NCBI GenBank assembly: GCA_002271215.1
Contig: CP018628.1
Span: 496,001 to 560,000, forward strand
Length of the DNA stretch: 64,000 nt
Direction of reading: 5' to 3'
Source of the DNA: Lelliottia jeotgali
Lineage (GTDB): Bacteria > Pseudomonadota > Gammaproteobacteria > Enterobacterales > Enterobacteriaceae
Position numbers and translations under genes: made by a program
Notes under the pieces: model-generated
Database searches by the model: none
Seen by the model: the letters and a program-made list of their open reading frames with translations, nothing else
Told to the model about the DNA's origin: nothing
Shown here: in pieces, positions 8,425 to 64,000 of the stretch
Position numbering within the stretch: position 1 is the first letter of the stretch
How the letters are laid out: each line of letters starts with the position of its first letter

Positions 8425-9526
8425 GAAATACGGTTTAAAACAGGTGATCAACACGTCTGGCCGCATGACCGCGCTGGGCGTATCCACGCCGCGCCCGGAA
8501 GTGGTACAGGCGGCGATGGACGGCATGAACCAGTATTTCGAGATGAAAGATCTGGTGAATAAAACCGGGGAATACATCGCGAAGCTGCTGGACGTGGAAG
8601 GGGCGACGGTCGTCTCCTGCGCGTCGGCGGGGATTGCCCAGTCCGTCGCAGCGGTGCTGGTGAAAGACAGCGGCTGGCTGCTGGAAAACCTGCACGTCAC
8701 GCCGATCGAGAACAACGAAATTGTGCTGCCGAAAGGCCACAACGTTAACTTTGGTGCACCGGTGGGTACGATGGTGGCGCTCGGCGGCGGTAAACTGGTG
8801 GAAGCCGGGTACGCCAACGAATGCTCTGCCGATCAGCTGGCAGCGGCGATCACCCCACGCACGGCGGCGATCCTCTACATCAAATCGCACCACTGCGTGC
8901 AGAAAAGTATGCTCAGCGTCGAGCAGGCGGCAGTGGTGGCGCGTAAACACGATCTGCCGCTGATTGTCGATGCGGCCGCCGAAGAAGATCTTCATACCTA
9001 TTATCGCTCCGGCGCGGATCTGGTGATCTACAGCGGCGCGAAGGCGATTGAAGGGCCAACCAGCGGGCTGGTGATCGGCAAAACGCAGTACGTCGAGTGG
9101 GTGAAACGCCAGACGGCGGGCATTGGTCGCGCAATGAAAGTGGGCAAAGAGGGGATTCTCGGCCTGACCTGCGCCATCGAACATTATCTGACGGCAACCA
9201 AAGAGAGCGGGGCGGAAATGGTCGCGAAAATGACGCCATTTATCGATTCCCTGAATACCCTCAACGGCGTCACGGCCCGTGTGGTGTGGGACAGCGCCGG
9301 TCGCGATATTGCGCGCACTGAAATCAAATTCGACGAAGCCACCACCGGCGTCGGCACCGGCGATCTGGTATCGCAGCTTAAACAGGGTGAATACGCGATC
9401 TATTTCCGTGGCTACAAGGCCAACGAAGGGATTATCGAAGCGGACGTGCGCAGCGTCAGCGCCGATCAGCTGAACATTGTTTATCGCCGCATCCGCGAAG
9501 TCTTAAGCCAGGAGAAACAAGCATGA
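8408..9526 (+). CDS. dgaE: DgaE-like PLP-dependent D-glucosaminate-6-phosphate ammonia lyase
   Basis: The 372-residue SelA-like fold-type I PLP enzyme carries its likely Schiff-base lysine, Lys212, in IYSGAKAIEGPTSG, and the cofactor-binding aspartate in PLIVDAAAEEDL. The family member DgaE of Salmonella converts D-glucosaminate 6-phosphate to 2-keto-3-deoxygluconate 6-phosphate and ammonia. The neighbouring aldolase of matching type supports the same chemistry here. The start overlaps the amidohydrolase gene, and its stop shares ATGA with the next gene, so all three are translationally coupled. The exact substrate may differ from that of Salmonella, because the transporter is different. Confidence 0.85.
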   Translation: MPSIYEKYGLKQVINTSGRMTALGVSTPRPEVVQAAMDGMNQYFEMKDLVNKTGEYIAKLLDVEGATVVSCASAGIAQSVAAVLVKDSGWLLENLHVTPIENNEIVLPKGHNVNFGAPVGTMVALGGGKLVEAGYANECSADQLAAAITPRTAAILYIKSHHCVQKSMLSVEQAAVVARKHDLPLIVDAAAEEDLHTYYRSGADLVIYSGAKAIEGPTSGLVIGKTQYVEWVKRQTAGIGRAMKVGKEGILGLTCAIEHYLTATKESGAEMVAKMTPFIDSLNTLNGVTARVVWDSAGRDIARTEIKFDEATTGVGTGDLVSQLKQGEYAIYFRGYKANEGIIEADVRSVSADQLNIVYRRIREVLSQEKQA

Positions 9527-48600: not shown

Positions 48601-48685
48601 GCCGAAGTGGCGAAATCGGTAGACGCAGTTGATTCAAAATCAACCGTAGAGATACGTGCCGGTTCGAGTCCGGCCTTCGGCACCA
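48601..48685 (+). tRNA. leuX: tRNA-Leu (anticodon CAA)
   Basis: The 85-nt class II tRNA has its acceptor stem gccgaag / cttcggc with encoded acca end. The anticodon arm ttgattcaaaatcaa gives CAA. There is a variable arm and the T-arm ggttcgagtcc. It is the leuX gene, a classical insertion site of enterobacterial islands with P4-type integrases, and one follows here. Confidence 0.97.
48663..48685 (+). other. Presumed attL core in the 3' end of leuX
   Basis: The P4-type integrase immediately downstream uses tRNA 3' ends as attachment sites, so the T-arm/acceptor end (ttcgagtccggccttcggcacca) should be duplicated at the far end of the island. The second copy is not in this window, so this remains inferred. 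Confidence 0.55.
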
Positions 48686-48871: not shown

Positions 48872-50125
48872 ATGGCTCTAACAGATATCAAGGTCAGAAC
48901 AGCCAAGCCAACGGATAAGCAATACAAGCTGACTGATGGCAGTGGTATGCATCTTCTTGTGCACCCTAATGGTTCTAAGTACTGGCGTTTGCAGTACCGA
49001 TTTGGCGGAAAGCAAAAGATGCTGGCTCTGGGTGTTTACCCTGATGTGTCACTCGCTGATGCCAGGGCTCGCCGTGATGAAGCTCGTAAACTTTTGGCAA
49101 ACAGCATCGATCCGGGAGATAAAAAGAAAAATGATAAGGTTGAGCAGGAAGAAACACGTACTTTCGAACAACTTGCTATTGAGTGGCATGCCACAAATAA
49201 AAAGTGGTCGGAAGAACATAGCAGACGCGTGCTTAAAAGCCTGGAGGACAACCTCTTTCCAGCCATAGGTAAGCGTAATATTGTCGAATTAAAAACGCGC
49301 GACCTTTTAGCGCCTATCAAAGCTGTTGAGTTGTCTGGGCGTCTTGAGGTGGCTTCCCGTCTACAGCAGCGCACCACCGCAATTATGCGCTATGCGGTAC
49401 AGAGTGGTTTGCTTGATTATAATCCGGCACAGGAGATGGCCGGGGCCGTTGCTTCAAGTAACCGGCAGCATAGGCCTGCGTTAGAGTTGCGACGTACTCC
49501 CGAACTGCTTCAGCGCATTGATAGCTATACCGGCAGGCCTTTGACCCGTCTTGCCGTTGAGCTAACTCTTCTTGTCTTCATCCGCTCCAGCGAATTGCGT
49601 TTTGCTCGTTGGTCTGAGATCGATTTTGAAACATCAATGTGGACTATCCCTGCAGAGCGCGAAGCTATTGAAGGGGTAAAGCACTCCCAGCGTGGCTCAA
49701 AAATGCGTACGCCTCATTTGGTGCCGTTATCTCATCAGGCGTTAGCAATCCTTAAACAAGTACACAAACTTAGTGGCGATCGCGATTTTGTTTTCATTGG
49801 CGATCACGATCATCGCAAACCGATGAGTGAAAACACGGTGAACAAATCTTTGCGAGTGATGGGATATGACACGCAGGTTGAAGTCTGCGGTCACGGTTTC
49901 AGGACAATGGCGTGTAGTTCGTTGATTGAGTCAGGGTTGTGGTCGAGAGATGCAGTGGAACGGCAGATGAGCCATATGGAGCGTAACTCTGTGCGAGCGG
50001 CTTACATTCACAAAGCTGAGCATCTTGATGAGCGCAAACTGATGCTGCAATGGTGGGCTGATTTTCTGGATGCGAATAGGGATAAGGCGGTGAGTCCGTT
50101 TGACTTTGCCAAGCTTGGGCTGTGA
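48872..50125 (+). CDS. intB: P4-type tyrosine integrase of the leuX island
   Basis: The 417-residue integrase has an N-terminal DUF4102 arm-binding domain (ALTDIKVRTAKPTDKQYKL), a SAM-like core-binding domain (~95-190) and a tyrosine recombinase catalytic domain. Catalytic residues: Arg238 (FIRSSELRF), His341 and Arg344 in GHGFRT, and nucleophile Tyr378 in RAAYIHK. It is intact, so the island could still be excisable. Close in sequence to IntB next to leuX in E. coli. Confidence 0.95.
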   Translation: MALTDIKVRTAKPTDKQYKLTDGSGMHLLVHPNGSKYWRLQYRFGGKQKMLALGVYPDVSLADARARRDEARKLLANSIDPGDKKKNDKVEQEETRTFEQLAIEWHATNKKWSEEHSRRVLKSLEDNLFPAIGKRNIVELKTRDLLAPIKAVELSGRLEVASRLQQRTTAIMRYAVQSGLLDYNPAQEMAGAVASSNRQHRPALELRRTPELLQRIDSYTGRPLTRLAVELTLLVFIRSSELRFARWSEIDFETSMWTIPAEREAIEGVKHSQRGSKMRTPHLVPLSHQALAILKQVHKLSGDRDFVFIGDHDHRKPMSENTVNKSLRVMGYDTQVEVCGHGFRTMACSSLIESGLWSRDAVERQMSHMERNSVRAAYIHKAEHLDERKLMLQWWADFLDANRDKAVSPFDFAKLGL

Positions 50126-50463: not shown

Positions 50464-53400
50464 ATGGATGCTTTAAGGGCTACAACATCGACAAATTTCA
50501 GTTTTCTCGCTGAACATGACCCGCTGTTTCTACAAATCGCCGCTGCTGCAGAAAATGCCTTCTCAGGCGATCCCAACACCACCTTGATTAAATTGCGCCA
50601 ACTAGGTGAAGCCTTAGCACAACATATTGCTGCGCTGGTCGGGCTCACGTTTGATGAACCGCCCACTCAGGCTGATTTACTCTACCGCCTCAATCGCGAG
50701 CTAAAATTTGAACCCATGGTACGCGAGCTATTTCATCTATTGCGGATAGAGGGCAACAAGGCCACTCACCAGTTCAAAACCAAGCACAAAGAGGCGCTGG
50801 ATGGCTTAAAAGTGGCGCGAGCGCTAGCTATCTGGTTCCACCAATCTTTCGGAAAGCAGGGCGCGGCCTTTAAACCCGGCGCTTTTATTGCTCCCCCAGA
50901 CCCGAGCAATCAGCTCAGGCAACTCCAAACGGAAATCGATCGCCTCAAAAGTGAGCTCACTAACGCCAACATACAGCTAGATTCCAGCCAACAGCTGCAA
51001 AAGTTACTGGTGCAGGAAAAGAGTGAATATGAAACGCTGGCGCTAGCCATGGATGATGAAACCAAGGTGTTAGCATCGCAGGCGAAAGAACAGGAAATTG
51101 AACTCGAAAAGCTTCGACAGCAATACGAAGAAAAACTAAAAAACCTACAAGCACAGCTGACCGAAAAAGATGAAAAGCAGGCCCGAACAAGACGGCAAGA
51201 GTTTACCCAGAAGAGCCGCCGTGCCAGCCAACATATCGCGTTAAATGAAGAACTCACCCGTATACTAATTGACCAAAACTTAAATGATGCGGGCTGGCTT
51301 GCTGACAGTCAGGAACTGACCTGGGCTAACGGAACTCGCCCTGAAAAGGGGATCAACAAAGCCATTGCCGAATGGCCTACGGAGCATCAGGGTAAAAAAG
51401 GCCGCGCTGATTACGTTCTTTTTTGCGGTTTAACTCCGCTGGCCACGGTCGAAGCCAAAAAAGAAAACACCGATGTTGCGGGAAAAATTCCGCAGGCAGA
51501 GCGCTACAGTAAAGGCTTCAAAATCACTTTCCCCATGATCGGTGCATGGGAGCGGGAAGGCAGAACCATTGCATGGGCGGATGAAACTGACGGGCATTAC
51601 ATTATCCCGTTTGTATACTCCTGCAACGGTCGCCCCTACGTGCCACAGTTGGCCGAGTCATCAGGAACTTGGTTCAGGGATGTGCGAGAACCGTCCAACA
51701 TCCGCCGTGCGCTGCAAAAGTTTCATACCCCACAGGGTTTGCTGGATAAGCTCGAACGCAGCAAAGACAGCGCCGAACAGAAGCTAAAGCAAGAAGGCTT
51801 CGCTTACCTCCGGTTACGTGATTATCAGCAAAAGGCCATTCTCGCCGTTGAAAGCACATTGGCGCAAAACATCCGCAATGCCCTGCTGGCGATGGCGACC
51901 GGCACCGGGAAAACACGCACCATTGTTGGCTTGATGTACCGTTTTCTGAAAACTGAACGCTTCAAGCGCATCCTGTTTCTGGTTGACCGCACGGCTTTGG
52001 GCGACCAAGCCACGGACACCTTCAAAGAAGCGCCGCTGGAGCAAAACCAGACGCTGTCTCAGATTTACAATATCGCTGAGCTCGGCGATATGGCGACACA
52101 GGCAGAAACTCGAGTACAGGTCGCGACGGTACAGGCCATGGTTAGCCGCATTTTTGCCTCGGACACACCCCCGCCGGTGGATGAGTTCGACTGCATCATC
52201 GTTGATGAAGCCCACCGAGGCTACACCTTAGATCAAGAAATGACGGAAGGGGAGCTCTCGACCCGTGACGCCAGCCAATACCTCTCTAGCTACCGTCGGG
52301 TGCTCGATTATTTCGACGCGGTAAAAATCGGCCTTACCGCCACCCCGGCGAAACACACCAGCGATATCTTCGGCAAACCGATTTACATCTACTCCTACCG
52401 AGAAGCCGTGGCTGATGATTGGCTTATCGATCATGAACCTCCAATCCGTTATGAAACGCTGCTGACGCAAAATGGCATCCACTTTGACAAAGGGAGTCAG
52501 GTACATGCCATTAATATCCACACCGGAGAGGTTGAGATTGACCAGCTAGAAGACGAGCTGGATTTCAACGTCGATGCATTTAACCGTGGCGTCATCAGTG
52601 AAAACTTTAATCGGGTTATTTGCCAACAACTCGTGAAAGAGCTCGACCCCTTTGGCGAAGAGAAAACGTTGGTTTTCTGCGTTACAGACAAACATGCCGA
52701 CATGGTCAAACGCCTGCTGGATGAAGCGTTCTCTGCCGAATATGAAAACTATAATCAAGCGGCCGTAGAAAAAATCACTGGTGGAAGTGACAAAGTCAAT
52801 CAGCTGATCAAACGTTATAAAAATGAGCGCTATCCGAATATTGCAGTCACCGTTGATTTGCTTAGTACCGGCATTGATGTGCCGAAGATTTGTAATCTGG
52901 TTTTCTTGCGTCGGGTGAAGTCACGTATTTTATTTGAACAGATGATAGGCCGCGCAACGCGCCGCTGTGATGACATTGGCAAAACGGTCTTCCGTATTTA
53001 CGATCCAGTGGATATTTATGAGGCCCTCAGCGACGTCAACACTATGAAACCGTTGGTCAAAGACCCCAATATCACGCTTGAGCAATTGGTCAGCGAGTTA
53101 ACCGATACTGAACAGCTTGAAAAAGCGCTCAACAGCCCCGGCGAACAGACAGGTGAAACTCAGGCTGATGTGGTGCTCAGTCAGTTAAGCCAAAAGGTGA
53201 TGCGCATCCTGCGTAAAGCGGAAAAACGGTCAGAAAATCGCCCAGCGGTGAAACAAAAATTGGCTGACCTCCATCAACTGTGGGGCGTTGAGCCAAAACA
53301 GCTGCATCAACATCTGCATCACTTAGGGCCGCGTCAGGCGGCAGCTTTCATCCAACAACAGCAAGGGCTAATTAGCCAGCTCAACGAGATAACTACATTA

Positions 53401-53988
53401 CTCGGAAGTGAATACCGGCCGATTATTTCTGAGCATCATGACCAACTACAGGAACGTAATCAGAGCTACGGTAGCCATCAGCGGCCAGAAGATTACTTGG
53501 AAAGCTTTGCGGATTTTATTCAGCAGCAGCTTAACCAATCCACTGCGCTGGCCGTGGTTGTCAACAAACCCCGCGACCTCACTCGTGAACAGCTTAAAGA
53601 GATCCGCTTATTATTAGACGGTGCGGGTTATTCCGAAGCTAAACTACAAACTGCCGTGCGTAATCAAACCAATCAGGATATCGCTGCAAGCATTGTCGGC
53701 CATATTCGCCGTGCTGCACTAGGGGAGCCTCTTGTGCCTTTTGCACAGCGCGTATCACAGGCAATGATCAACATTTATAACAGCCGCGCATGGACAACCC
53801 AGCAACGAAAATGGCTGGATCGTCTGGCAAAACAGCTGGTTCATGAAGTGATCATTGATCACCAATTTATTAACAGTAGTTTTGCTGACGATGGCGGCGT
53901 AAAACAGCTCAATAAGATATTGGTAGACCAATTGGACAGCGTGCTGGATGAACTTAACGGTGCGATATGGCCACAACAAAGCGCCTGA
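50464..53988 (+). CDS. hsdR: Type I restriction endonuclease subunit R (HsdR)
   Basis: The 1174-residue motor-nuclease subunit has an N-terminal DUF4145-like domain (1-125), a long coiled coil rich in Gln/Glu/Lys (~150-255), and a PD-(D/E)xK nuclease with Asp316 and Glu330-x-Lys332 (ADYVLF ... TVEAKKEN). Next comes an SF2 helicase with Walker A GTGKT at 480-484, DEAH at 581-584 and motif VI EQMIGRATR. A helical C-terminus would bind HsdM/S. It translocates and cuts DNA lacking the HsdMS methyl mark. First gene of the defence operon. Confidence 0.95.
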   Translation: MDALRATTSTNFSFLAEHDPLFLQIAAAAENAFSGDPNTTLIKLRQLGEALAQHIAALVGLTFDEPPTQADLLYRLNRELKFEPMVRELFHLLRIEGNKATHQFKTKHKEALDGLKVARALAIWFHQSFGKQGAAFKPGAFIAPPDPSNQLRQLQTEIDRLKSELTNANIQLDSSQQLQKLLVQEKSEYETLALAMDDETKVLASQAKEQEIELEKLRQQYEEKLKNLQAQLTEKDEKQARTRRQEFTQKSRRASQHIALNEELTRILIDQNLNDAGWLADSQELTWANGTRPEKGINKAIAEWPTEHQGKKGRADYVLFCGLTPLATVEAKKENTDVAGKIPQAERYSKGFKITFPMIGAWEREGRTIAWADETDGHYIIPFVYSCNGRPYVPQLAESSGTWFRDVREPSNIRRALQKFHTPQGLLDKLERSKDSAEQKLKQEGFAYLRLRDYQQKAILAVESTLAQNIRNALLAMATGTGKTRTIVGLMYRFLKTERFKRILFLVDRTALGDQATDTFKEAPLEQNQTLSQIYNIAELGDMATQAETRVQVATVQAMVSRIFASDTPPPVDEFDCIIVDEAHRGYTLDQEMTEGELSTRDASQYLSSYRRVLDYFDAVKIGLTATPAKHTSDIFGKPIYIYSYREAVADDWLIDHEPPIRYETLLTQNGIHFDKGSQVHAINIHTGEVEIDQLEDELDFNVDAFNRGVISENFNRVICQQLVKELDPFGEEKTLVFCVTDKHADMVKRLLDEAFSAEYENYNQAAVEKITGGSDKVNQLIKRYKNERYPNIAVTVDLLSTGIDVPKICNLVFLRRVKSRILFEQMIGRATRRCDDIGKTVFRIYDPVDIYEALSDVNTMKPLVKDPNITLEQLVSELTDTEQLEKALNSPGEQTGETQADVVLSQLSQKVMRILRKAEKRSENRPAVKQKLADLHQLWGVEPKQLHQHLHHLGPRQAAAFIQQQQGLISQLNEITTLLGSEYRPIISEHHDQLQERNQSYGSHQRPEDYLESFADFIQQQLNQSTALAVVVNKPRDLTREQLKEIRLLLDGAGYSEAKLQTAVRNQTNQDIAASIVGHIRRAALGEPLVPFAQRVSQAMINIYNSRAWTTQQRKWLDRLAKQLVHEVIIDHQFINSSFADDGGVKQLNKILVDQLDSVLDELNGAIWPQQSA

Positions 53989-53999
53989 TTCTGGTAAAA

Positions 54000-54054
54000 T
54001 TCGCTAGCGAAACTCGCCTTTTTAATCGCGCTTGCGGCATATTTCGCGAGCGAA
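54000..54054. promoter_or_regulatory. Two similar palindromes between hsdR and hsdM
   Basis: ttcgctagcgaa (54000-54011) and ttcgcgagcgaa (54043-54054) have centres 43 bp apart (four helical turns) in the 79-bp gap before hsdM. Paired operators at this place could bind a regulator so that methylase is made before or independently of R. The binding protein is unknown. Confidence 0.45.
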
Positions 54055-54067
54055 TGCAGGAAAAATA

Positions 54068-55633
54068 ATGAGTAATAATAACGATATCGTACAAAAACTG
54101 TGGAACCTGTGTGATGTACTGCGTGATGACGGCATCAACTACAGCGATTACGTCACCGAACTAGTGCTACTACTGTTTATCAAAATGGTGCATGAAAATA
54201 CCGAAGCAGAAATATTAGATCAGCACACTTTACCGCAGGGCTGCCGCTGGGGCGATCTCAACAGTTTATCGGGCCTCAACCTGCTTAACCATTACAAACA
54301 AATGCTGTTGAAGCTCTCCAGCGGCAAAGACGCTGAAGGTAATTCGGTTCATGCCGACCCGCTGATTAGCGCCATTTATGACGATGCGCAGACTCGCCTG
54401 CGTGAGCCTCGTCATCTCGAACAGATGATCCGCACCCTCGACCAAATTGACTGGTTTAGTGCTAAAAAAGACGGTCTCGGTGATCTTTATGAAGGTCTGC
54501 TGGAGAAAAACGCCGGAGAGACAAAATCTGGCGCAGGACAATATTTTACGCCGCGAGCCTTAATTAACAGCATGGTACGCTGCATTAAGCCACAGGCTGG
54601 AGAAGTGATCCAAGATCCCGCTGCGGGGACCGCAGGATTTTTGATTGCCGCCGATCAATACATCAAGCAACAAACCGACAACCTCTACGACCTGACGGCC
54701 AAAGCGAGAACCTTTCAAAAAAATAAAGCCTTTGTTGGTGTGGAACTGGTTCCGTCTACGCGCCGCTTGGCACTGATGAACTGCCTGCTGCACGGCATGG
54801 AAGGGGATGACGAAGGCGTCGTGCATCAGGGGAACGCGCTGGGTATGGCGGGGGCTAGTTTGCCTAAAGCTGATATCATTCTTGCTAACCCGCCATTTGG
54901 TACGGCGAAGGGAGGCGAAGCCAGCATTACCCGAGATTTTACACACCCAACCGGTAACAAACAGCTGGCATTTTTGCAGCACATCTATAATAACTTAAAA
55001 CCGGGTGGACGTGCCGCAGTGGTGCTGCCCGATAACGTCCTATTTGAAACGGGGGTCGGCACCGAAATTCGTCGCGACCTGATGAACAAATGCAACCTAC
55101 ACACCATTTTGCGTTTACCCACCGGGATTTTTTATGCCCAAGGGGTGAAAACCAACGTTTTGTTCTTCACCAAAGGCAGCGCCAACAACAAACATCAGGA
55201 TGAAAACTGTACCGAAAACGTCTGGGTTTATGACCTGCGCAGCAACATGCCAAGCTTTGGCAAACGCACCCCGTTTGGTGAGCAACATTTAAAACCCTTT
55301 GAAGCGGTTTATGGTGATGATTCCAACGGCCAAAGCCCGCGTAGCGAAGGGGAATGGAGCTTTAGCTCCGACAAGCTCGACGCGCCCGATAACGCCGAAA
55401 ATCAGCACGTTGATGACCGCATGGCGACCAGCCGCTGGCGCACATTCAGCCGCGAATGGATCCGCGATGTTAAAGGTGATTCATTAGATATCTCATGGCT
55501 GAAAGATAACAGCAGCGTTGATGCTGCTAACCTGCCTGAACCTAGCGTATTAGCGATTGAAGCAAAGGAAGAATTAACCACTGCTTTAGCAGAGCTGGAT
55601 GCTTTATTGACTGTATTAGGAGCAACTCGCTGA
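54068..55633 (+). CDS. hsdM: Type I restriction-modification methyltransferase subunit M (HsdM)
   Basis: The 521-residue N6-adenine methyltransferase has an N-terminal HsdM domain (NNNDIVQKLWNLCDVLRDDG), the AdoMet site in VIQDPAAGTAGFLIAADQY and the catalytic motif IV NPPF at Asn274. Start: ATG 54068; the ORF extends to 54032 without family support. Its stop overlaps the hsdS start (tgatg), so M and S are made together. Confidence 0.96.
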   Translation: MSNNNDIVQKLWNLCDVLRDDGINYSDYVTELVLLLFIKMVHENTEAEILDQHTLPQGCRWGDLNSLSGLNLLNHYKQMLLKLSSGKDAEGNSVHADPLISAIYDDAQTRLREPRHLEQMIRTLDQIDWFSAKKDGLGDLYEGLLEKNAGETKSGAGQYFTPRALINSMVRCIKPQAGEVIQDPAAGTAGFLIAADQYIKQQTDNLYDLTAKARTFQKNKAFVGVELVPSTRRLALMNCLLHGMEGDDEGVVHQGNALGMAGASLPKADIILANPPFGTAKGGEASITRDFTHPTGNKQLAFLQHIYNNLKPGGRAAVVLPDNVLFETGVGTEIRRDLMNKCNLHTILRLPTGIFYAQGVKTNVLFFTKGSANNKHQDENCTENVWVYDLRSNMPSFGKRTPFGEQHLKPFEAVYGDDSNGQSPRSEGEWSFSSDKLDAPDNAENQHVDDRMATSRWRTFSREWIRDVKGDSLDISWLKDNSSVDAANLPEPSVLAIEAKEELTTALAELDALLTVLGATR

Positions 55634-57000
55634 TGAGTGAGATTATTCTACCTGAAGGGTGGTCCAATTGTACTCTTGCAGATATTGCTGAAGTTAACCC
55701 TAAAAAAATAGAGGCTGAACAAGACATAAATGCAGGCTTTGTTCCTATGTCCCATGCCCCAACAAACTATAATGGGAAATTAGAGTTTGAAGAAAAAACG
55801 TGGGGTGAGATTGGCAAGTCTTACACTAACTTTAAAAATGATGATGTGATTTTTGCAAAAGTAACGCCCTGTTTTGAAAATGGTAAAGCAGCAATTGTAA
55901 AAGACATGCCAAATAATATCGGAGCAGGCAGCTCTGAATTTTATGTTCTACGCGCTCGTAATCAAGAGATACCAGCCAGTTATTTACTTGGGATTATTAA
56001 GACCAGAAAATTTATGCAGGAAGGTGCAGAAAATATGACAGGTGCTGTTGGTCTGCGCCGTGTTCCAAGGGCTTTCGTTGAAAGTTTTCCTTTGATGCTT
56101 CCCCCTCTTGCAGAACAAAAAATCATCGCCGATAAACTCGACATTCTGCTGGCACAGGTCGATAGCACCAAAGTACGCCTTGAGAAAATACCACAAATCC
56201 TAAAGCATTTTCGTCAGGCGGTGTTGGCGGCAGCGGTGAGTGGGAAATTGACGGAGGAGTGGCGTGGTACAGCTATCCTAAATAACTGGAAAAGCGGGGT
56301 ACTTAAGAATTTCATAAAGAAACCGTCTTACGGTACTTCTGCAAAGTCTCAAAAAGAAGGGTTAATCCCTGTGCTAAGAATGGGGAACCTTCAAAATGGT
56401 GAATTGAATTGGTCTGATTTAGTTTATACATCAGATGAAAATGAAATTGAAAAATATAACCTAATAGCTGGCGATATATTATTTAATCGAACAAACAGCC
56501 CCGAGTTAGTAGGTAAGACCTCTATTTATAGAGGGGAAAAACAAGCAATTTATGCTGGGTATTTGATTAAAATCCAGTGTTTAGAGGAACTAAATCCTGA
56601 ATATCTCAATTATCATCTTAATAGCCATATAGCGAAGCAATACTGTTATGAAGTTAAATCTGATGGCGTTAGTCAATCAAATATTAATGCTCAAAAACTG
56701 GCGGCGTACCCTTTAGAAGTACCACCAATCAAAGAACAAAACGAAATTGTCCGCCGCATAGAACAACTCTTCGCCTGTGCTGACGGCATCGAAAAGCAGG
56801 TACAAAACGCCCTTGAGCGCGTCAACAACCTCACACATTCGATCTTGGCTAAAGCATTTCGTGGGGAACTCACGGCACAATGGCGGGCAGAAAATCCCGA
56901 ATTAATCAGCGGTGAAAATAGCGCACAATCATTGCTGGTAAGAATTCAACAGCAGCGTAAAAGTATAAAAAACATCAAGCAAAGAAAAGGTAAAAGTTAA
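55633..57000 (+). CDS. hsdS: Type I restriction-modification specificity subunit S (HsdS)
   Basis: The 455-residue DNA-recognition subunit has two target-recognition domains, each followed by a conserved helical spacer. TRD1 (~1-150) then LAEQKIIADKLDILLAQVD; TRD2 (~210-365) then IKEQNEIVRRIEQLFACAD and LTHSILAKAFRGELTAQWR. The specificity cannot be read from sequence. TRDs are AT-rich compared with hsdM, as usual for exchanged domains. It overlaps hsdM (tgatg) and the following ATPase gene (taatg), each by one base. Confidence 0.95.
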   Translation: MSEIILPEGWSNCTLADIAEVNPKKIEAEQDINAGFVPMSHAPTNYNGKLEFEEKTWGEIGKSYTNFKNDDVIFAKVTPCFENGKAAIVKDMPNNIGAGSSEFYVLRARNQEIPASYLLGIIKTRKFMQEGAENMTGAVGLRRVPRAFVESFPLMLPPLAEQKIIADKLDILLAQVDSTKVRLEKIPQILKHFRQAVLAAAVSGKLTEEWRGTAILNNWKSGVLKNFIKKPSYGTSAKSQKEGLIPVLRMGNLQNGELNWSDLVYTSDENEIEKYNLIAGDILFNRTNSPELVGKTSIYRGEKQAIYAGYLIKIQCLEELNPEYLNYHLNSHIAKQYCYEVKSDGVSQSNINAQKLAAYPLEVPPIKEQNEIVRRIEQLFACADGIEKQVQNALERVNNLTHSILAKAFRGELTAQWRAENPELISGENSAQSLLVRIQQQRKSIKNIKQRKGKS

Positions 57001-58703
57001 TGAGACTGATATCTTTAAACTTGAGTGGCGGCTACAAAGGCTTGAAAGATCAGTTCTTTGATTTTAGTTATGCCCAAGATAATATATTTGCATTGATTGG
57101 CCTTAATGGTTCTGGTAAATCTCAATTGCTTGAGTTAATCGGGGAAACTTTTGCTTATCTAGAGCGATGGCAACGTGCAGAGTTCAAAAATAAAACATCG
57201 TTAGGTTTTAGCGTTGCGGTACACTATCAATGGGATCTTAGAAATGATAGTGCTGTTATGTCTTACCCAGACGAGCTCATGAATCATGGTGAGAGTATTG
57301 AGCTAAAGGTAACTATTGAGCTTGACGGAGCTGTGGTTTTAAATGTTCGTGGTGCTGATGAGTGGCATGTAATACAGCTTGGTGAGCGCCATTTTCCCAT
57401 CCCTCTCGTGGTTGGTTATGCTTCGGGGCTAAACGAAAATTTACAGCGAAGTTTTATGAAAAATGCTGTGCAATATTTTGAAGTTCGTCGAATTAGTAGC
57501 CAGCGTCTAAAAATGCTATCACGAGAAATCAATGATGAACAGTTGGCTGAAATCAATAAAAAGTATCTTAAAAAATACCCACACATATTTGATCCTTTAT
57601 CAGAAGGTGATTTTGTTCCAAATTATCACCTGAATTTGAGAGAAGTAAACCCTGCCTCTAGCAATTTCAACTACCTTGATTACGATAATGTTGGGCTCTT
57701 AATTTTATCACTATCGATTCTTCCGACAGAGACAGTATTTCAACTGTTGGATGAAATAACATATAAGCATCCCGTCAAAGCCGTACTTCATTACGACTTT
57801 CGTTCCGGTATCATAGAAGATGATGCCATTCGTGATGTGAAAATGTTGATCCGTATAGCAGGCTCCGATCAAGTAAAGCCAACAGGAGGCCGAACGACAG
57901 ATAACCAGTATGAGCTTTATGAGTTAGAATATCTGTCTGGAGAAATCACTCTCGAATTAAGTGATGAGACTGTCTTAAACAGACTTCGTGAAGATAACTA
58001 CTATGATTCTTTCGCATTATTTAAAAGGCTTAACAATATTCAACAGCTTGGCATAAAGAACTGGGATCGTACATCTCGTTTGAAATTGATGAAAGATGAT
58101 TTTATAGGTACGGTAAAAAAACCACTCCAGTCAAGATTACCTTTATCTGTTGTTGAATTATTAATGGCTAATGAACAGGGTGATACCGTTAAGTTTGATG
58201 ATTTATCTGACGGTGAAGCTCAATTGATTCAGGTTATCGCGGCTACGCGGATATTCAGTCAGGCTCAGGCTATATTTCTTTTTGATGAGCCTGAAACACA
58301 CCTTAATCCTTCTTGGCGAACCTATTTTCACCAGCGTTTGACCGAAGCTTTTACACCGGAAAATGAAAGTAAAGGGCAATCACAGTTCTTTTTATCTACT
58401 CACTCACCATTCATGATTTCCTCGCTCAAACGCGAGAATGTATTTTTCTTCGAGCGTAATGAAATGGGTTATATCAGTATGGAACCGGTATCCAGCCAGA
58501 CTTACGGCACTTCATTTGATATCTTGGTTAAGAACCACTACGGTTTACGATCCCTTATTTCACAGACAGTGGTAGAGGATGTTAAAAATCGATTACCAGA
58601 AGATAATGATCCTGAAGCAGTTATAGTTGCGCGACGCTGGATTGAGGAAAATTTGGGAGATTCAATGGAAAAGGCTTATCTGCTAAGGAAATTAGAGAGC
58701 TAA
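57000..58703 (+). CDS. ABC/OLD-type AAA ATPase, Septu PtuA-like, in the hsd operon
   Basis: The 567-residue ATPase has Walker A GLNGSGKS at residues 34-41, a long insertion, the signature-like LSDGEAQLIQVIAATRIF, Walker B IFLFDEPETHLNP (~425-437) and the switch histidine in LSTHSPFMI. This is the layout of overcoming-lysogeny-defect and PtuA-type ATPases (AAA_21/AAA_15). With the HNH gene that follows it resembles the Septu defence pair PtuA-PtuB. It starts within the stop of hsdS (taATG), implying obligatory co-expression. No TOPRIM domain is seen, unlike OLD nucleases. The exact defence family needs a profile search. Confidence 0.78.
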   Translation: MRLISLNLSGGYKGLKDQFFDFSYAQDNIFALIGLNGSGKSQLLELIGETFAYLERWQRAEFKNKTSLGFSVAVHYQWDLRNDSAVMSYPDELMNHGESIELKVTIELDGAVVLNVRGADEWHVIQLGERHFPIPLVVGYASGLNENLQRSFMKNAVQYFEVRRISSQRLKMLSREINDEQLAEINKKYLKKYPHIFDPLSEGDFVPNYHLNLREVNPASSNFNYLDYDNVGLLILSLSILPTETVFQLLDEITYKHPVKAVLHYDFRSGIIEDDAIRDVKMLIRIAGSDQVKPTGGRTTDNQYELYELEYLSGEITLELSDETVLNRLREDNYYDSFALFKRLNNIQQLGIKNWDRTSRLKLMKDDFIGTVKKPLQSRLPLSVVELLMANEQGDTVKFDDLSDGEAQLIQVIAATRIFSQAQAIFLFDEPETHLNPSWRTYFHQRLTEAFTPENESKGQSQFFLSTHSPFMISSLKRENVFFFERNEMGYISMEPVSSQTYGTSFDILVKNHYGLRSLISQTVVEDVKNRLPEDNDPEAVIVARRWIEENLGDSMEKAYLLRKLES

Positions 58704-59863
58704 TGTTATTCTCACTCAACCTACAGACTCCACAATGCTCTGTATTTGCGTTGCTTAACGCTGAGTTTCTTCATTTTCTGGACTCCAGTGTTAATGCAAA
58801 TGTTTTCTCAGAGGCATTATTTAGAACATTTCCTGAGATGATAGAAGATAAAGTAGTAGAAGTTCCTAGCGTATGTTGGAATAATAAACCCACAAGAGAG
58901 AAATTTCATAGCTTATGGGAAGCACTACCTACAGCTATTGCTGAACGTCGGAGGTTGTCGGATCAAATAAGTCAGGCCCAGGATATTATTGTATTCTTTA
59001 ACAATACACAAACAGTGTTGCCAGAATTAGAGCCAGCTATTTTGTTCGAAGCATGTAAGGCATTAACAACTCATCTGTTTACGCGTACCAAAGACTTGGT
59101 TCAAGCAAAGTCACAATCCAATAACTCTATTGAAATACACTATCAGAATTTTGTTAGAGGAAATAATAATAGTCATCTTTGCATTATTTGTGGTACGGCA
59201 CTTCTTTCTCAAAATAGGGTAAGTGTAGCGGATGAAGATCAGTGGCGTTCAGATTATGACCATGTGCTTTGCAAAGATAAATATCCAGTTTACAGTGTCC
59301 ATCCAGGCAATTTTATTCCTACCTGCCACATTTGTAATAGCAAGGCAAAAGGGGCTAAGGATGTACTGAGAGCTCAAAGCGGCCAACGGAGAACAGCATT
59401 TTATCCACTTCCGCCAGCACAAGAATCATGTGAACCATATATATCAGTGACAACTCAGCTAAGTAGTCGTAGCGATTTAGTTACTGACTCTTGGGAAACG
59501 CCTTTAACATCAGTTTCAATTTCATATGTAAATGCTCCGGCAGAAGTATTGAACAAGATAGAAGTTTGGAAAGAGATTTATGAAGTACCTGAAAGAGTTG
59601 AGCAACATCTTAAGGCTAATTTTTTCACACGCATAGCATCTGATCTTCAGCCAACAAATTTTGATGACTTCTGTCAACAATTACAAAGACGTACAAGAAA
59701 TACTCCACCAGATTATAAACAGTCAGAATGGAGATTTTGGTGGCAGAAAGTTTATGAATTCTTAGGAAACCAAAATCAACTCTATTTGCGTGATGTATGG
59801 TTAATGGTTGAGTGGAAACAAAGACAATCAAATGATGCTGATATGGCACATGAATTTAGTTAA
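58703..59863 (+). CDS. HNH endonuclease, Septu PtuB-like
   Basis: The 386-residue nuclease candidate has a zinc-HNH core with Cys160-x-x-Cys163, His187 in the DHVLCKDKYPV strand, and Cys208-His-x-Cys211-Asn in TCHICNSKAKGAKD; the order C..C-DH-CxxCN is that of HNH ββα-metal enzymes. The rest (first 155 and last 150 residues) is unrecognised and probably serves binding to the ATPase. Its ATG overlaps the ATPase stop (taATG), and a strong terminator at 60102 ends the operon. In known Septu systems, PtuA controls the nuclease PtuB. Confidence 0.78.
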   Translation: MLFSLNLQTPQCSVFALLNAEFLHFLDSSVNANVFSEALFRTFPEMIEDKVVEVPSVCWNNKPTREKFHSLWEALPTAIAERRRLSDQISQAQDIIVFFNNTQTVLPELEPAILFEACKALTTHLFTRTKDLVQAKSQSNNSIEIHYQNFVRGNNNSHLCIICGTALLSQNRVSVADEDQWRSDYDHVLCKDKYPVYSVHPGNFIPTCHICNSKAKGAKDVLRAQSGQRRTAFYPLPPAQESCEPYISVTTQLSSRSDLVTDSWETPLTSVSISYVNAPAEVLNKIEVWKEIYEVPERVEQHLKANFFTRIASDLQPTNFDDFCQQLQRRTRNTPPDYKQSEWRFWWQKVYEFLGNQNQLYLRDVWLMVEWKQRQSNDADMAHEFS

Positions 59864-60101
59864 TAAATGCTATTGGACTTATGCGCATTATCCTTGAGTT
59901 AATTGGATGGTTATATTAATCTTCCGCTTGAAGAGATGCCAGAAAAATGTCCAAATGACATTGTTTTTAGCACGTACAGTAAATATTAATAACACTGCCG
60001 CCCAATTTTATTATTTGCAAGGAGTTGTACATTGATATAATGATTTTTTGGATAGAAATGAACATGATATCTAATTCTTTACAAGGTCGGCAGCTGTTAA
60101 G

Positions 60102-60128
60102 AACATGGTAAATAGTTACCATGTTTTT
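60102..60128. terminator. Bidirectional terminator after the HNH gene
   Basis: aacatggtaa-atag-ttaccatgtt with a following T run closes the hsd/Septu-like operon from the left and the ImmA-type gene (stop at 60133) from the right. The preceding 240 bp are AT-rich and hold no gene that I can see. Confidence 0.8.
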
Positions 60129-60132
60129 AGAT

Positions 60133-61245
60133 CTATTTAACCAAACTTAAATGTGGAGGACGTTTACCTGATTTTTGCTCAGTCAAGCCTTCCCCAGTGA
60201 TGGAGCCCATAAAGAAGCTATTACTAAACGTAAGGGCACTTACTTCATCCGCAGGGAACCGTAGTTGTTCGAGGATCGTACTACGTTTGATCCCATTTGA
60301 ACGCAGTGCTGAAAACACCTTTTCTAATACAAGTGATCTCTCACGCTCGTCCATACCTTGTGGTTCGCTGGTTCGATACCCCCGTCGAGCTAACTCAATT
60401 GATAACTGTCGATAATGCCATTCGGTAGATAAACCCACATCGAATGTGCGACGGACCAAAGCTGCAAGTGACACTTTCCAATTTTTTTTCAATGAGATAA
60501 GTAGATCCAGCGATGGCATTCTTGGGACCGTAGCCAAAACACTACGTTCAGGCATCAGAAAAGCTGATGCAAAGCGGTCGGCATCTAGTTCAGCTTGTCT
60601 GCCATTATTGCTTGAATGTTTGTGAAGAACTAAATGACCTAATTCATGAGCTGCATCGAAGCGGCTACGCTCCGGTGTTTTCATTGTGTTCAGAAGAACA
60701 AATGGTTTTTCGTCAATCCAAAACGAAAAAGCATCAACTTCAACGCAATTTTCAGCGAGCGAGAATACACGTACCCCATTAGCCTCCAGAAGGTGAATTA
60801 AGTTAGAAATCGATAGTTCACCGACTCCCCAGTGTTCTCTCACTGCTCGGGCGGCACGATCAGGTTCCGAATAACCATCGAAGCTACAATCAGGAACATT
60901 GGGTTTCGGTAGTTTGAATTGTTCTTCAATCCAGATTGATAACTCTTGGGCAAGTTTGCCTGCTCCAAGCGCGGAATCTCTCTTCTGTGCACTTAGCTTA
61001 GTCATTGCACGAAAACTAACCGATTCAGGAGCAAGAGAAGGGACGTCTCTGTCGAGGAAAAATTCAACAGGGTAACCAAGAACAGCAGAGATTTTATCCA
61101 TACTGTCACTGGCTACAGCATCAAAGATACCAGCCTTCTCATAGTTAGAAATCGTTCTGCTGGTCAATTCAGCTGCTTCGGCTAAAGCTCTTTGTGTCAG
61201 ACCTCTTCGTTCTCTTGCTATACGTAAACGCTCTGAATTAAACAT
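60133..61245 (-). CDS. XRE-family regulator with ImmA/IrrE metallopeptidase domain
   Basis: The 370-residue protein has an N-terminal Cro/C1 helix-turn-helix (RIARERRGLTQRALAEAAEL TSRTISNYE, residues ~6-35) joined to a DUF955 zinc peptidase with the HExxH motif in FDAAHELGHLVLH (~200-212) and a distal ADRFASAFLMPE. ImmA/IrrE-type proteases cleave a partner repressor or sense damage. Here both parts are in one chain. Second gene of a two-gene unit, 9 bp after an unrecognised partner. Likely a regulator of, or partner in, a toxin-antitoxin or defence function. Confidence 0.88.
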   Translation of the reverse strand: MFNSERLRIARERRGLTQRALAEAAELTSRTISNYEKAGIFDAVASDSMDKISAVLGYPVEFFLDRDVPSLAPESVSFRAMTKLSAQKRDSALGAGKLAQELSIWIEEQFKLPKPNVPDCSFDGYSEPDRAARAVREHWGVGELSISNLIHLLEANGVRVFSLAENCVEVDAFSFWIDEKPFVLLNTMKTPERSRFDAAHELGHLVLHKHSSNNGRQAELDADRFASAFLMPERSVLATVPRMPSLDLLISLKKNWKVSLAALVRRTFDVGLSTEWHYRQLSIELARRGYRTSEPQGMDERERSLVLEKVFSALRSNGIKRSTILEQLRFPADEVSALTFSNSFFMGSITGEGLTEQKSGKRPPHLSLVK

Positions 61246-61254
61246 GGTACATAC

Positions 61255-61974
61255 TTAGCCTACTTTTAAAATGTCGAGGTCGATATCTGGCGTAAATAGT
61301 GGTGCATCATTACTCTGGATAATCGGCTCAGGTCCGTGAATATCAAGTATCAAACGCGTAGAAAAGCTATTGACTACATTTTTATCGTTGTACGAGATCG
61401 GTCGAGAAAGCTCCGCACGGATACCTACACGGTGAAAGTCATCGATTTCATAAAAATCGTAGAGTAAAAACCATAAGTCCATTCCGATTTTATTCGGCAG
61501 GAGAGGTACAACATCACCTTCGGGTAGATCAAGGTCCAACTTAAGTTGGGTATCGTCGAACTTGAGGTCTCCTTGTCCTGGGGTATTGTTGTGAATCAAC
61601 CCCATCAGATCGCAAGTAAAGTCACCTTTCTTCAGGCGAGATTCGGGGTATCCATGAAGAAGCCCAGTTTGATCGCAGCCACGGCATAGGTAAATTGCAA
61701 CATTATCGCTAACGGTTAATTCAACATTTCGAATAGATAGCCGTTTATACCCTCTTGGCGCAAGAATCTCACGAGCGCCGCTAACTCCCTCACCATAAAA
61801 ATACTGCCCACGTGAAATTGCAGGGTGGTTCTGAGTCGTTGAGTAACGACCTGATAACCCTCGTTCGAGGATACGGCCAAGATCACTTTGGCTAAGATTC
61901 ATAGGCTGCAGATAGGACTCAACATCATCTGGGTCAGCCAGCACGACAGTTTTTGCGAGATTATGGGAGTACAT
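61255..61974 (-). CDS. Unrecognised 239-aa protein, partner of the XRE-ImmA gene
   Basis: I do not recognise this protein. It starts MYSHNLAKTVVLADPDDVES, is soluble and acidic, and has a short Cys motif (YLCRGCDQTG) and a beta-rich C-terminal half (DLPEGDVVPLLPNKIGMDLW ... RLILDIHGPEPII). It is the first gene of the pair with the XRE-ImmA gene, and its minus-strand start is divergent from mcrB. A perfect 14-bp palindrome lies at 62009, in the shared promoter region. A toxin or ImmA target role is possible but unsupported. Confidence 0.6.
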   Translation of the reverse strand: MYSHNLAKTVVLADPDDVESYLQPMNLSQSDLGRILERGLSGRYSTTQNHPAISRGQYFYGEGVSGAREILAPRGYKRLSIRNVELTVSDNVAIYLCRGCDQTGLLHGYPESRLKKGDFTCDLMGLIHNNTPGQGDLKFDDTQLKLDLDLPEGDVVPLLPNKIGMDLWFLLYDFYEIDDFHRVGIRAELSRPISYNDKNVVNSFSTRLILDIHGPEPIIQSNDAPLFTPDIDLDILKVG

Positions 61975-62204: not shown

Positions 62205-64000
62205 ATGCTCGAAGTTGAATTTCAGGAATGGTTGAAAAGCAAAGGAGCCAAAACGCAAGCAGGCCTCAACTCCCGTATTTATGCTGTCAAAACTATAGAA
62301 AAAAATCTCGCAGCACTTGGTTCTCCTCATGCAGATCTGGATGCAGCCTACAATGCGGATGGATTTGCGCAATTGAGACAGCGGATCAAAGAGATTCGCC
62401 GTGATGCCAAAGACTACGGCAATGACTATCGGTTACTAATGCCTGAATCAGAGCAACCGCTTAACCGATTGTCCAACTGGAATAGCTGGCTCGGACAATA
62501 TGGACGCTTCCTGAGCTGTGATGACTCTCAGGCCGACGAAATTCGGGATTATGTCCTTGAAAACTACATCACCCCAGCCAGAGAGCGAGGTGACGCAAGT
62601 GTCACCCTAGTAGTTGGCCCTCTGAATACTGAAATGGGTCTCGACAAGGGATGGCCGAACATCTGTCAGGCTCTTGATGGTCAAAAATTTCAGGAACTAG
62701 CGGATGTTCCCCCTCCGGTGACGGAAGGGCCTAAAAAGAGCACAACCCGGAAATATACGTTCATCCTTACGGAAGGAAGCGAACTAGTGGCCCAGAATAA
62801 ACCAACTCCGACTAACCTTATTTTTTACGGTCCTCCAGGTACCGGAAAGACCTATAACACGGCGAGGGAAGCCGTAGCGCTCTGCGATGGCAAAGATGCC
62901 TATCCGAACTCAAAAGATGGGCGGGCGGCCCTGATGGTGCGCTATAACGAACTGATGGCAGAAAAGAGGATCTCTTTCGTCACATTCCACCAGAGCTATG
63001 ACTACGAAACCTTCGTTGAGGGCCTTCGTCCCGAAATCGGTGAAGATGAGTCTTCGTCTGCTGGATTTAGACTCATGCCTACGCCGGGTCTCTTCAGAGA
63101 AATTTGTGCCCTTGCCGATCAGGCCAGAACACAACCCCGTGCACAGACAGATGCCTCGGCACTGCAACTATCCCAAAAACGCTTCTGGAAAATGGGGCAA
63201 GGGACAATTGGCACCGAAGACGATGTGTATGAAGATGCCCGCGACAATGGGTATATCGCTCTGGGTTGGGGTGGGACGATAGACTGGAGCGCGGATAGAT
63301 TTTCATCGTTCAACGCGATTCATGATGAATGGATCAAGCAAAATCCAGGGAATCTGACGCCTAGTAACTGGACGCAAACCTACCCCTTCCGTTGCGAAAT
63401 GAAGCCTGGTGATATCGTGATTGTCCCTTACGGGAACACTGCGTTTCGCGCTATCGCTGAAATCACTGGTGATTACTATTTCGTTCCTGAAGCCGAAGGT
63501 TACTATGCCCACCGCCGCCCAGTTCGCTGGCTATTGACCCTTGATGAACCACTGCCACTCGATACCATTATCGATGGTAACTTCACCATGCGGACGCTTT
63601 ATTCCATTGCCACCAGTCGTGTGAATATCCCGGCGCTTGGCAGACTGCTCTCGAGTACAGAGAACTTGGATAATAGTTCCGATGTTAAAGGACAACCAGA
63701 ACAATTCGTCCTCATCATTGATGAGATCAACCGGGCAAATATCTCGAAAGTGTTCGGCGAACTGATTACGTTAATTGAGCCGGATAAACGTCTGGGAATG
63801 CCTGATGCACTCACCGTAACTTTGCCTTATTCGAAAAAGAAAGATTTTGGCATCCCCGCCAACCTTCATATCATAGGCACCATGAATACCGCCGATCGAT
63901 CCATCGCATTGCTCGACACAGCATTAAGGCGGCGATTCAACTTCCGGGAAATGGCTCCCGACGCGACCCTGCTAAGTGAAGTAGAGGGGATCGATCTCAA
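62205..64000 (+). CDS. mcrB: McrB-type GTPase of a modification-dependent restriction system (partial, runs off the window)
   Basis: The start is ATG 62205; the frame is open for 598 codons to the end of the window, so the gene is incomplete at its 3' end. Domains: an N-terminal helical region (~1-190), Walker A GPPGTGKT at 209-216, and FVTFHQSYDYETFVEG. An insertion at ~325-455 has an EVE/PUA-like look (FWKMGQGT, GYIALGWGG, MKPGDIVIVPYG, FRAIAEITG). Then come Walker B with Asp506-Glu507 (LIIDEINRANISKVFGEL) and the McrB signature MNTADRS, with arginines LRRRF. McrB-McrC cuts DNA with modified bases; mcrC should follow outside. Confidence 0.88.
   Translation, partial: MLEVEFQEWLKSKGAKTQAGLNSRIYAVKTIEKNLAALGSPHADLDAAYNADGFAQLRQRIKEIRRDAKDYGNDYRLLMPESEQPLNRLSNWNSWLGQYGRFLSCDDSQADEIRDYVLENYITPARERGDASVTLVVGPLNTEMGLDKGWPNICQALDGQKFQELADVPPPVTEGPKKSTTRKYTFILTEGSELVAQNKPTPTNLIFYGPPGTGKTYNTAREAVALCDGKDAYPNSKDGRAALMVRYNELMAEKRISFVTFHQSYDYETFVEGLRPEIGEDESSSAGFRLMPTPGLFREICALADQARTQPRAQTDASALQLSQKRFWKMGQGTIGTEDDVYEDARDNGYIALGWGGTIDWSADRFSSFNAIHDEWIKQNPGNLTPSNWTQTYPFRCEMKPGDIVIVPYGNTAFRAIAEITGDYYFVPEAEGYYAHRRPVRWLLTLDEPLPLDTIIDGNFTMRTLYSIATSRVNIPALGRLLSSTENLDNSSDVKGQPEQFVLIIDEINRANISKVFGELITLIEPDKRLGMPDALTVTLPYSKKKDFGIPANLHIIGTMNTADRSIALLDTALRRRFNFREMAPDATLLSEVEGIDL

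Follow-up and report, generated by a model that had tools for sequence, protein, structure and literature searches.

In the window, a stretch of 64,000 nucleotides from the 4.6-Mb single-contig genome of Lelliottia jeotgali, a type I restriction-modification operon carries two further genes directly behind hsdS, which code for a PtuA-like ABC ATPase and a putative PtuB-like HNH nuclease, a pair of the Septu kind. With close to even confidence, we read this operon as a type I system with a second effector, a Septu module that would be coupled to HsdS, gated by HsdMS and active beside HsdR or in its place. The proposal is built on the gene order, the overlaps between the genes, the predicted folds, the conserved residues, the link to hsdS and a set of related loci in which hsdR was not detected. 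Judging from these relatives in other bacteria, sequence comparison suggests that the pair may be able to replace the usual cutting subunit.

Organization of the operon and its genomic island

All genes of the operon lie on the forward strand. The first, hsdR (50464 to 53988), codes for a restriction subunit of 1174 residues, which matches NF008521 with 1618 bits (cut-off 729) and PADLOC REase_I at 8e-271 and contains the Pfam domains EcoEI_R_C and ResIII. It is followed by hsdM (54068 to 55633; N6-adenine methylase, 521 residues; PF02384, 1e-77; PADLOC MTase_I, 1e-221), for which a further in-frame TTG is present at 54032, and by hsdS (55633 to 57000; specificity subunit, 455 residues; PF01420 in two stretches, 4e-32; PADLOC Specificity_I, 1e-152), and a single operon thus holds the domains of HsdR, HsdM and HsdS. 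The genes for the ATPase (57000 to 58703; 567 residues) and the long HNH protein (58703 to 59863; 386 residues) come next.

The sequence-only reading had noted an overlap of one base between hsdM and hsdS, between hsdS and the ATPase gene, and between the ATPase and HNH genes, and all three overlaps are exact (tgatg, taatg and taatg). Such an overlap alone is not unusual, because hsdM and hsdS of EcoKI have the same one and are described as translationally coupled in the available part of PMC3510504. By analogy with this coupling, the ATPase and the HNH protein of the window operon may fairly be taken to be translationally coupled to HsdS, and the stop-start overlaps make it plausible that the dose of the pair is tied to HsdS. 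What exceeds chance is the recurrence of such tight gene packing in distant relatives. A strong terminator had also been proposed behind the HNH gene. A terminator-like stem-loop is indeed found between the operon and a convergent gene (60097 to 60130, forward strand), but it is weaker and farther away than claimed: it is a consensus match only, lies about 230 bases past the HNH stop codon and directly before the convergent gene, and has an A+T-rich stem of 15 pairs, 3 of them G-C. A scan of the region found 19 terminator-like sites against 12.9 expected.

The operon is preceded by a tRNA-Leu (caa) gene, the probable attachment gene of the island (48601 to 48685, forward strand), and by the tyrosine integrase gene of the island (48872 to 50125, forward strand; PF00589 with arm and central domains). 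tRNA-Leu, integrase and the same operon follow one another in the E. coli relative (L002) as well. Behind the operon, two genes on the reverse strand (60133 to 61974) match PADLOC RmrA (9e-150; with an HTH and an ImmA/IrrE-like domain) and RmrT (8e-50). Both also occur in L048, the version of the island in G460, and a literature search on the two names returned nothing useful. In E. coli VTB96935v (L002, 13275 to 16666), genes for PD-(D/E)XK and argonaute/piwi proteins replace them after the operon. McrB-like and McrC-like genes (62205 to 64000 of the window and 2406 to 5863 of L084; PF10117, 2e-73) add one more restriction system, of a type IV-like kind, to the same island.

Identity of the two proteins

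The Septu-like reading of the pair is supported by profile searches and by comparison of folds. The ATPase matches PADLOC PtuA1 at 3e-44, and the nearest folds to it are those of retron PtuA and Septu PtuA, although this likeness may in part be one to ABC/SMC heads in general. It is of the ABC type, with the previously proposed Walker A (G34-S41) and Walker B (D429-E430) motifs, both invariant in 68 aligned sequences, as are the signature S403-D404-G405-E406 and H468. The window pair does not reach the curated NCBIfam cut-offs for PtuA and PtuB, whose models take their names from effectors of retron Ec78: NF041760 PtuA gives 47 bits where 500 are required, no PtuB model matched the HNH protein, and the best model for the ATPase is TIGR04435 with 173.5 bits, under its cut-off of 300. 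Two other assignments were rejected, that of an OLD nuclease, as no Toprim model matched the ATPase in Pfam at E 0.1, and that of a retron, as hsdS lies directly upstream of the ATPase gene.

The HNH protein, encoded directly downstream of the ATPase, is predicted to have a PtuB fold. Its putative motif residues C160, C163, H187, C208 and C211 turned out to be invariant in 48 aligned HNH sequences, and H209 is conserved in at least 90% of them. D186, N203 and N212 are invariant as well, the two asparagines being absent from the earlier account. The PtuB match of the structural model came only from a second aligner run on Foldseek's own list, with no Foldseek match at E 0.001, and the sequence gave no meaningful match in the PDB. 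An hhalign comparison of the long HNH protein with the short hsdS-linked PtuB returned a probability of 0.9%, and we therefore do not claim homology of the two at the sequence level.

A sister group in which hsdR is mostly not found

In a sister group, the ATPase is paired with a short PtuB, which PADLOC PtuB1 matches at 3e-86 to 2e-97 (L050, L051 and L060); on two E. coli copies, NF041761 PtuB gave 4e-12 and 2e-11, below its cut-off. hsdR was not found in the stretch read in 15 of 17 short-PtuB loci, namely in L050, L051, L060, L072, L073, L075, L076 and, in E. coli, eight loci that include several near copies. The other two loci, L071 and L074, have hsdR. Eight of the ten E. coli matches were inspected, and here the absence covers 6–9 kb on each side. 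The short-PtuB locus L045 of the enlarged ATPase tree is outside the count of 17. Three whole genomes of this group (G1129, G578 and G315, each rated 100% complete) contain no HsdR recognized by NF008521 or TIGR00348 at 1e-10; in control genomes with hsdR, NF008521 matched at the operon in five out of five, below the cut-off in G561. On four plasmids of the short-PtuB group, no HsdR was found on the plasmid itself. Both models might miss an HsdR that has diverged strongly. HsdS is present in the loci without detected hsdR, and the NPP[FYW] motif of HsdM is found in every row of the HsdM tree.

The long-HNH group, which includes the window, has kept hsdR in 14 of 16 loci, with L049 counted here on the basis of its length and PDC-M01B matches, its A1 score being just 13 bits; in L047 and L008 hsdR was not found. 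As nearly all long-HNH loci have hsdR, the argument for a substitution of HsdR is indirect for the window subtype. The presence of hsdR switches only twice on the ATPase tree, and hence the loci without it represent few independent events.

These loci weaken the proposal of the sequence-only reading that the pair is a second-line weapon triggered by inactivation of HsdRMS, as related pairs occur where hsdR was not found. A rival explanation is a guard similar to PrrC or PARIS, in which intact HsdRMS would silence PtuAB, and a phage protein that blocks restriction would release PtuAB, which would then cut tRNA or DNA and stop growth. Such guards have precedents: the accessible text of PMC12707154 places PrrC in a type IC locus, where it is activated when Stp inhibits EcoPrrI, and has PARIS sensing Ocr, and PtuAB of retron-Eco7 depletes tRNA-Tyr according to the portion of PMC11555353 at hand. 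It also speaks for a guard that the same genus has hsdRMS without the pair (L057 and L058) and that pairs of this clade never turned up without hsdS, with one row, L045, starting at a contig edge. However, in the 15 short-PtuB loci and the three whole genomes there was no HsdR to be found that could be guarded, and this explanation seems doubtful to us. The pair may still guard just the methylase.

Linkage of the pair to hsdS

The pair was not found mostly away from hsd genes with a promoter of its own; it is bound to hsdS, as had been proposed. In all ten genomes retrieved with the HNH profile, the ATPase gene is directly upstream of the HNH gene. Eight of them have the direct order hsdS-ATPase-HNH (S-A-B), including G314 with an ATPase split in two frames, and one (G1203) has the pair in an hsd operon with one gene between. 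The tenth (G1329) has no hsd gene on its 6.6-kb contig, and its upstream ATPase match is weak at 35 bits.

One branch (99/98, one change) of a 38-ATPase tree separates 27 hsdS-linked from 10 free-standing proteins, and the separation holds with four E. coli rows added (98/96). The window pair belongs to the hsdS-linked group and not to the free-standing two-gene systems. The tree is unrooted, has several long branches and contains rows collected with queries from both sides; it shows a separation within the sample and not a census. L045 is unlabelled (it begins at a contig edge), L047 and L050 (ATPase in two frames) and the fragmented L077 were left out, and the second ATPases of L010 and L013 were excluded. 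L068, in which a 345-residue PDC-S05-like gene separates hsdS and the ATPase gene, was counted as hsdS-linked. None of the 27 labelled hsdS-linked rows is away from an hsd operon. The linkage is exclusive within the sample, and it appears to be old.

Methylase_S scored above the Pfam cut-off in the upstream hsdS of all 18 loci checked, and in L008, L009 and L011. The ATPase gene overlaps its upstream neighbor in 19 of the 27 loci and follows it after a gap of 2–24 nt in the other eight; the latter include L068, in which the immediate upstream gene is not hsdS. For free-standing PtuA, the upstream gap is 127–552 nt in five of ten cases, and in the other five no same-strand ORF of 150 residues ends within 600 nt upstream. 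On plasmids, hsdS is just upstream in six of six records matched by the short-type L060 ATPase, one of them fragmented, and in none of the six inspected out of 15 matched by a free-standing PtuA. In L044, L047, L075 and L076 the order is S-A-B-hsdM, and hence S-A-B is the unit that stays together. In four hsdS-ATPase loci (L009, L011, L012 and L013; three from Bacteroidota, one from UBP6), two profiles found no HNH gene, which speaks against the reading that we prefer. Here, the ATPase gene is followed by a small ORF and then GmrSD, by a GIY-YIG/DUF4357 protein, by a 170-residue ORF or by a second ATPase.

The same data bear on the explanation that the pair is an ordinary Septu system parked behind hsdS, which would be a favored landing site with co-transcription as the sole link. 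Consistent with this, tgvAB and darTG2 are also located in type I operons (available sections of PMC11411939 and PMC12255303, respectively), the hsdR-hsdM interval contains Fic genes in L006 (5745 to 6902), L043 (5597 to 6676) and L055 (5500 to 6621), and related hsdM genes can be followed at the same position by either the long or the short type of PtuAB. However, the hsdS-linked ATPases make up one side of the tree with no labelled row away from an hsd operon, S-A-B persists where hsdM is displaced, and the free PtuA genes have wide gaps or no same-strand ORF upstream. We consider mere parking unlikely.

Distribution

Surveys with the HNH profile, one across the class and two within single orders of it, gave matches in 5 of 369, 4 of 200 and 2 of 194 genomes, ten distinct genomes in all, as G314 matched twice. 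ATPase surveys at differing thresholds gave 4 of 274, 4 of 394 and 2 of 75 genomes; with TIGR04435, 10 of 398 genomes matched. Seven of these ten have an hsdS-linked ATPase, two (G634 and G465) do not, and one was left out; G316, on a 4.4-kb contig, is left out of the counts. A scan of genome contigs with the ATPase alignment found at least eight loci, one of which, the L007 fragment, was dropped. The window type is present in one of 5426 E. coli genomes. Three queries found no relative in viral contigs. Phages gave no relative of the HNH protein and one unannotated record with 23% identity to the short-type ATPase, and plasmids gave no window-type ATPase at 1e-30 and two weak HNH relatives with 25–30% identity.

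On the V. anguillarum plasmid p15 (L077), the hsd operon and the ATPase gene appear to be decaying, being annotated as many short pieces beside IS66 genes. A Pseudoalteromonas plasmid (L074) has an extra 'restriction endonuclease' gene (8443 to 9486) after the PtuB gene. Several hsdS-PtuAB loci have genes for SoFic or other Fic proteins, placed in the hsdR-hsdM interval, ahead of hsdM or right after the pair; besides L006, L043 and L055, these loci are L072 (1624 to 2703), L087, L088, L089, L091 and L092.

Module exchange and selection

The HsdM proteins of L070 and L071 are closely paired as sisters, but the long type of PtuAB is found in one operon and the short type in the other, and L006 similarly differs in PtuAB type from L074 and L072 despite related HsdM proteins. 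This argues against a tight co-adaptation with one HsdM, and modules have been exchanged. The ATPases of the window and of the E. coli copy share 94% identity and their HNH proteins only 75%, with dS values of 0.21 and 1.08, respectively. Hence, a diverged allele has probably replaced the HNH gene in one of the two copies.

Protein distances in 13 loci correlate for the ATPase and HNH (0.93), HsdS and ATPase (0.89), HsdR and ATPase (0.885), HsdM and ATPase (0.83) and HsdR and HsdM (0.965), with a Mantel p of 0.0005 for each. The L043 HNH gene has an internal TAG, and only its open 201-residue piece was used, here as elsewhere. The HsdS-ATPase correlation is no higher than that of HsdR and ATPase and, as the 13 loci fall into few deep groups, the correlations say no more than that the genes of the operon move together. 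With dN/dS of 0.11–0.13 for the ATPase and 0.15–0.24 for HNH, both genes are under purifying selection. A chance or decaying arrangement of no function is highly improbable, as its rarity (the window type in a single E. coli genome), the fragmented V. anguillarum copy and the two-frame ATPases of L047 and L050 are set against purifying selection, invariant motif residues and recurrence across phyla.

Proposed mechanism

In the reading that we prefer, a second effector coupled to HsdS, the PtuA-like ATPase and the PtuB-like HNH protein would form a complex, as in solved PtuAB entries, and this complex would be made in step with HsdS through the stop-start overlap. The HsdM-HsdS methylase would both mark self and recognize the target. 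The ATPase would bind HsdS, or HsdM-HsdS on DNA, and might sense its state, be it an unmethylated site or a stalled or inhibited enzyme. It would then open the HNH nuclease, and cleavage of DNA or RNA would follow; the available text of PMC11555353, which describes the depletion of tRNA-Tyr mentioned above, also cites Septu PtuAB as DNA-acting. In the window operon HNH would act alongside HsdR, and in the sister group in its place, presumably in defense against phages. More tentatively, and with distinctly less than even confidence, Septu may be regarded as an exchangeable restriction subunit that HsdS directs and type I methylation gates; it would serve the HsdM-HsdS methylase instead of HsdR in the sister group and together with HsdR in the window.

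To our knowledge, there is no settled view of what triggers Septu as a free-standing system. In our sample, one Septu group occurs only with hsdS, partly where hsdR was not found, and this makes the state of HsdMS on DNA a concrete candidate. If this is true, nucleases of unrelated kinds can be fitted to the methylase core of a type I system, some supposedly solitary type I methylase loci may be complete restriction systems, and the pair would be an alternative weapon that follows the same mark of self and non-self.

Comparison with known systems

The pair was not assigned to PrrC or RloC, as the window has a separate HNH gene and not a one-protein nuclease, and Pfam AAA_13, which we take to be the PrrC-type ATPase family, was not matched. 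Like the window pair, PrrC is a nuclease module encoded within a type I operon (PMC12707154, available part), and the excerpt of PMC11555353 attributes an ABC-ATPase domain to PrrC170. PARIS was rejected as well: the partner is HNH/PtuB-like, and there is no AriB among the best 25 of 39 PADLOC matches of the HNH protein. The methylation-associated defense system (MADS) consists of a methylase, an S subunit and an AAA ATPase; the window's matches to MAD2, MAD3 and MAD5 are weak and all far under the cut-offs.

A full member of TIGR04435 ('restriction system-associated AAA family ATPase'), that of G561 with 780 bits, has the same hsdR-hsdM-S-A-B order; the title of this model does not mention an HNH partner. 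The PADLOC candidates PDC-M62 and PDC-M01 also combine an ATPase with HNH, and their best scores on the two window proteins are 36–58 bits, the PADLOC cut-off not being given. In the accessible part of a Bacillus cereus group survey (PMC11811056), PDC-M62/PDC-M01 were called on the same proteins as Septu.

Among the matches listed in our literature search, there is no account of Septu behind hsdS or of hsdM-hsdS-PtuA-PtuB loci without hsdR. Payne et al. (2024) reportedly deal with embedded defenses and may list such loci. Defense modules inside type I operons are already known, as is the wording 'restriction system-associated' in the NCBI model name. TgvAB and DarTG2 resemble the window pair in being two-gene modules inside hsd operons and, as described in the available parts of the papers cited above, differ from it in kind: TgvAB is of the GmrSD family, and DarTG2 is a DarTG toxin-antitoxin between hsdS and hsdR. 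Septu inside Hma systems is mentioned in the same portion of PMC12255303. Septu, including PtuAB of retrons Ec78 and Ec83, has the nearest folds and, like the window, an ABC ATPase followed by an HNH protein, with the CxxC - DH - N - CxxCN layout common to Septu PtuB and the window HNH. The window pair differs from Septu in the length of its HNH protein, 386 residues compared to about 190–305 in the PtuB proteins used for comparison, and in its place behind hsdS, whereas Septu stands alone or in a retron.
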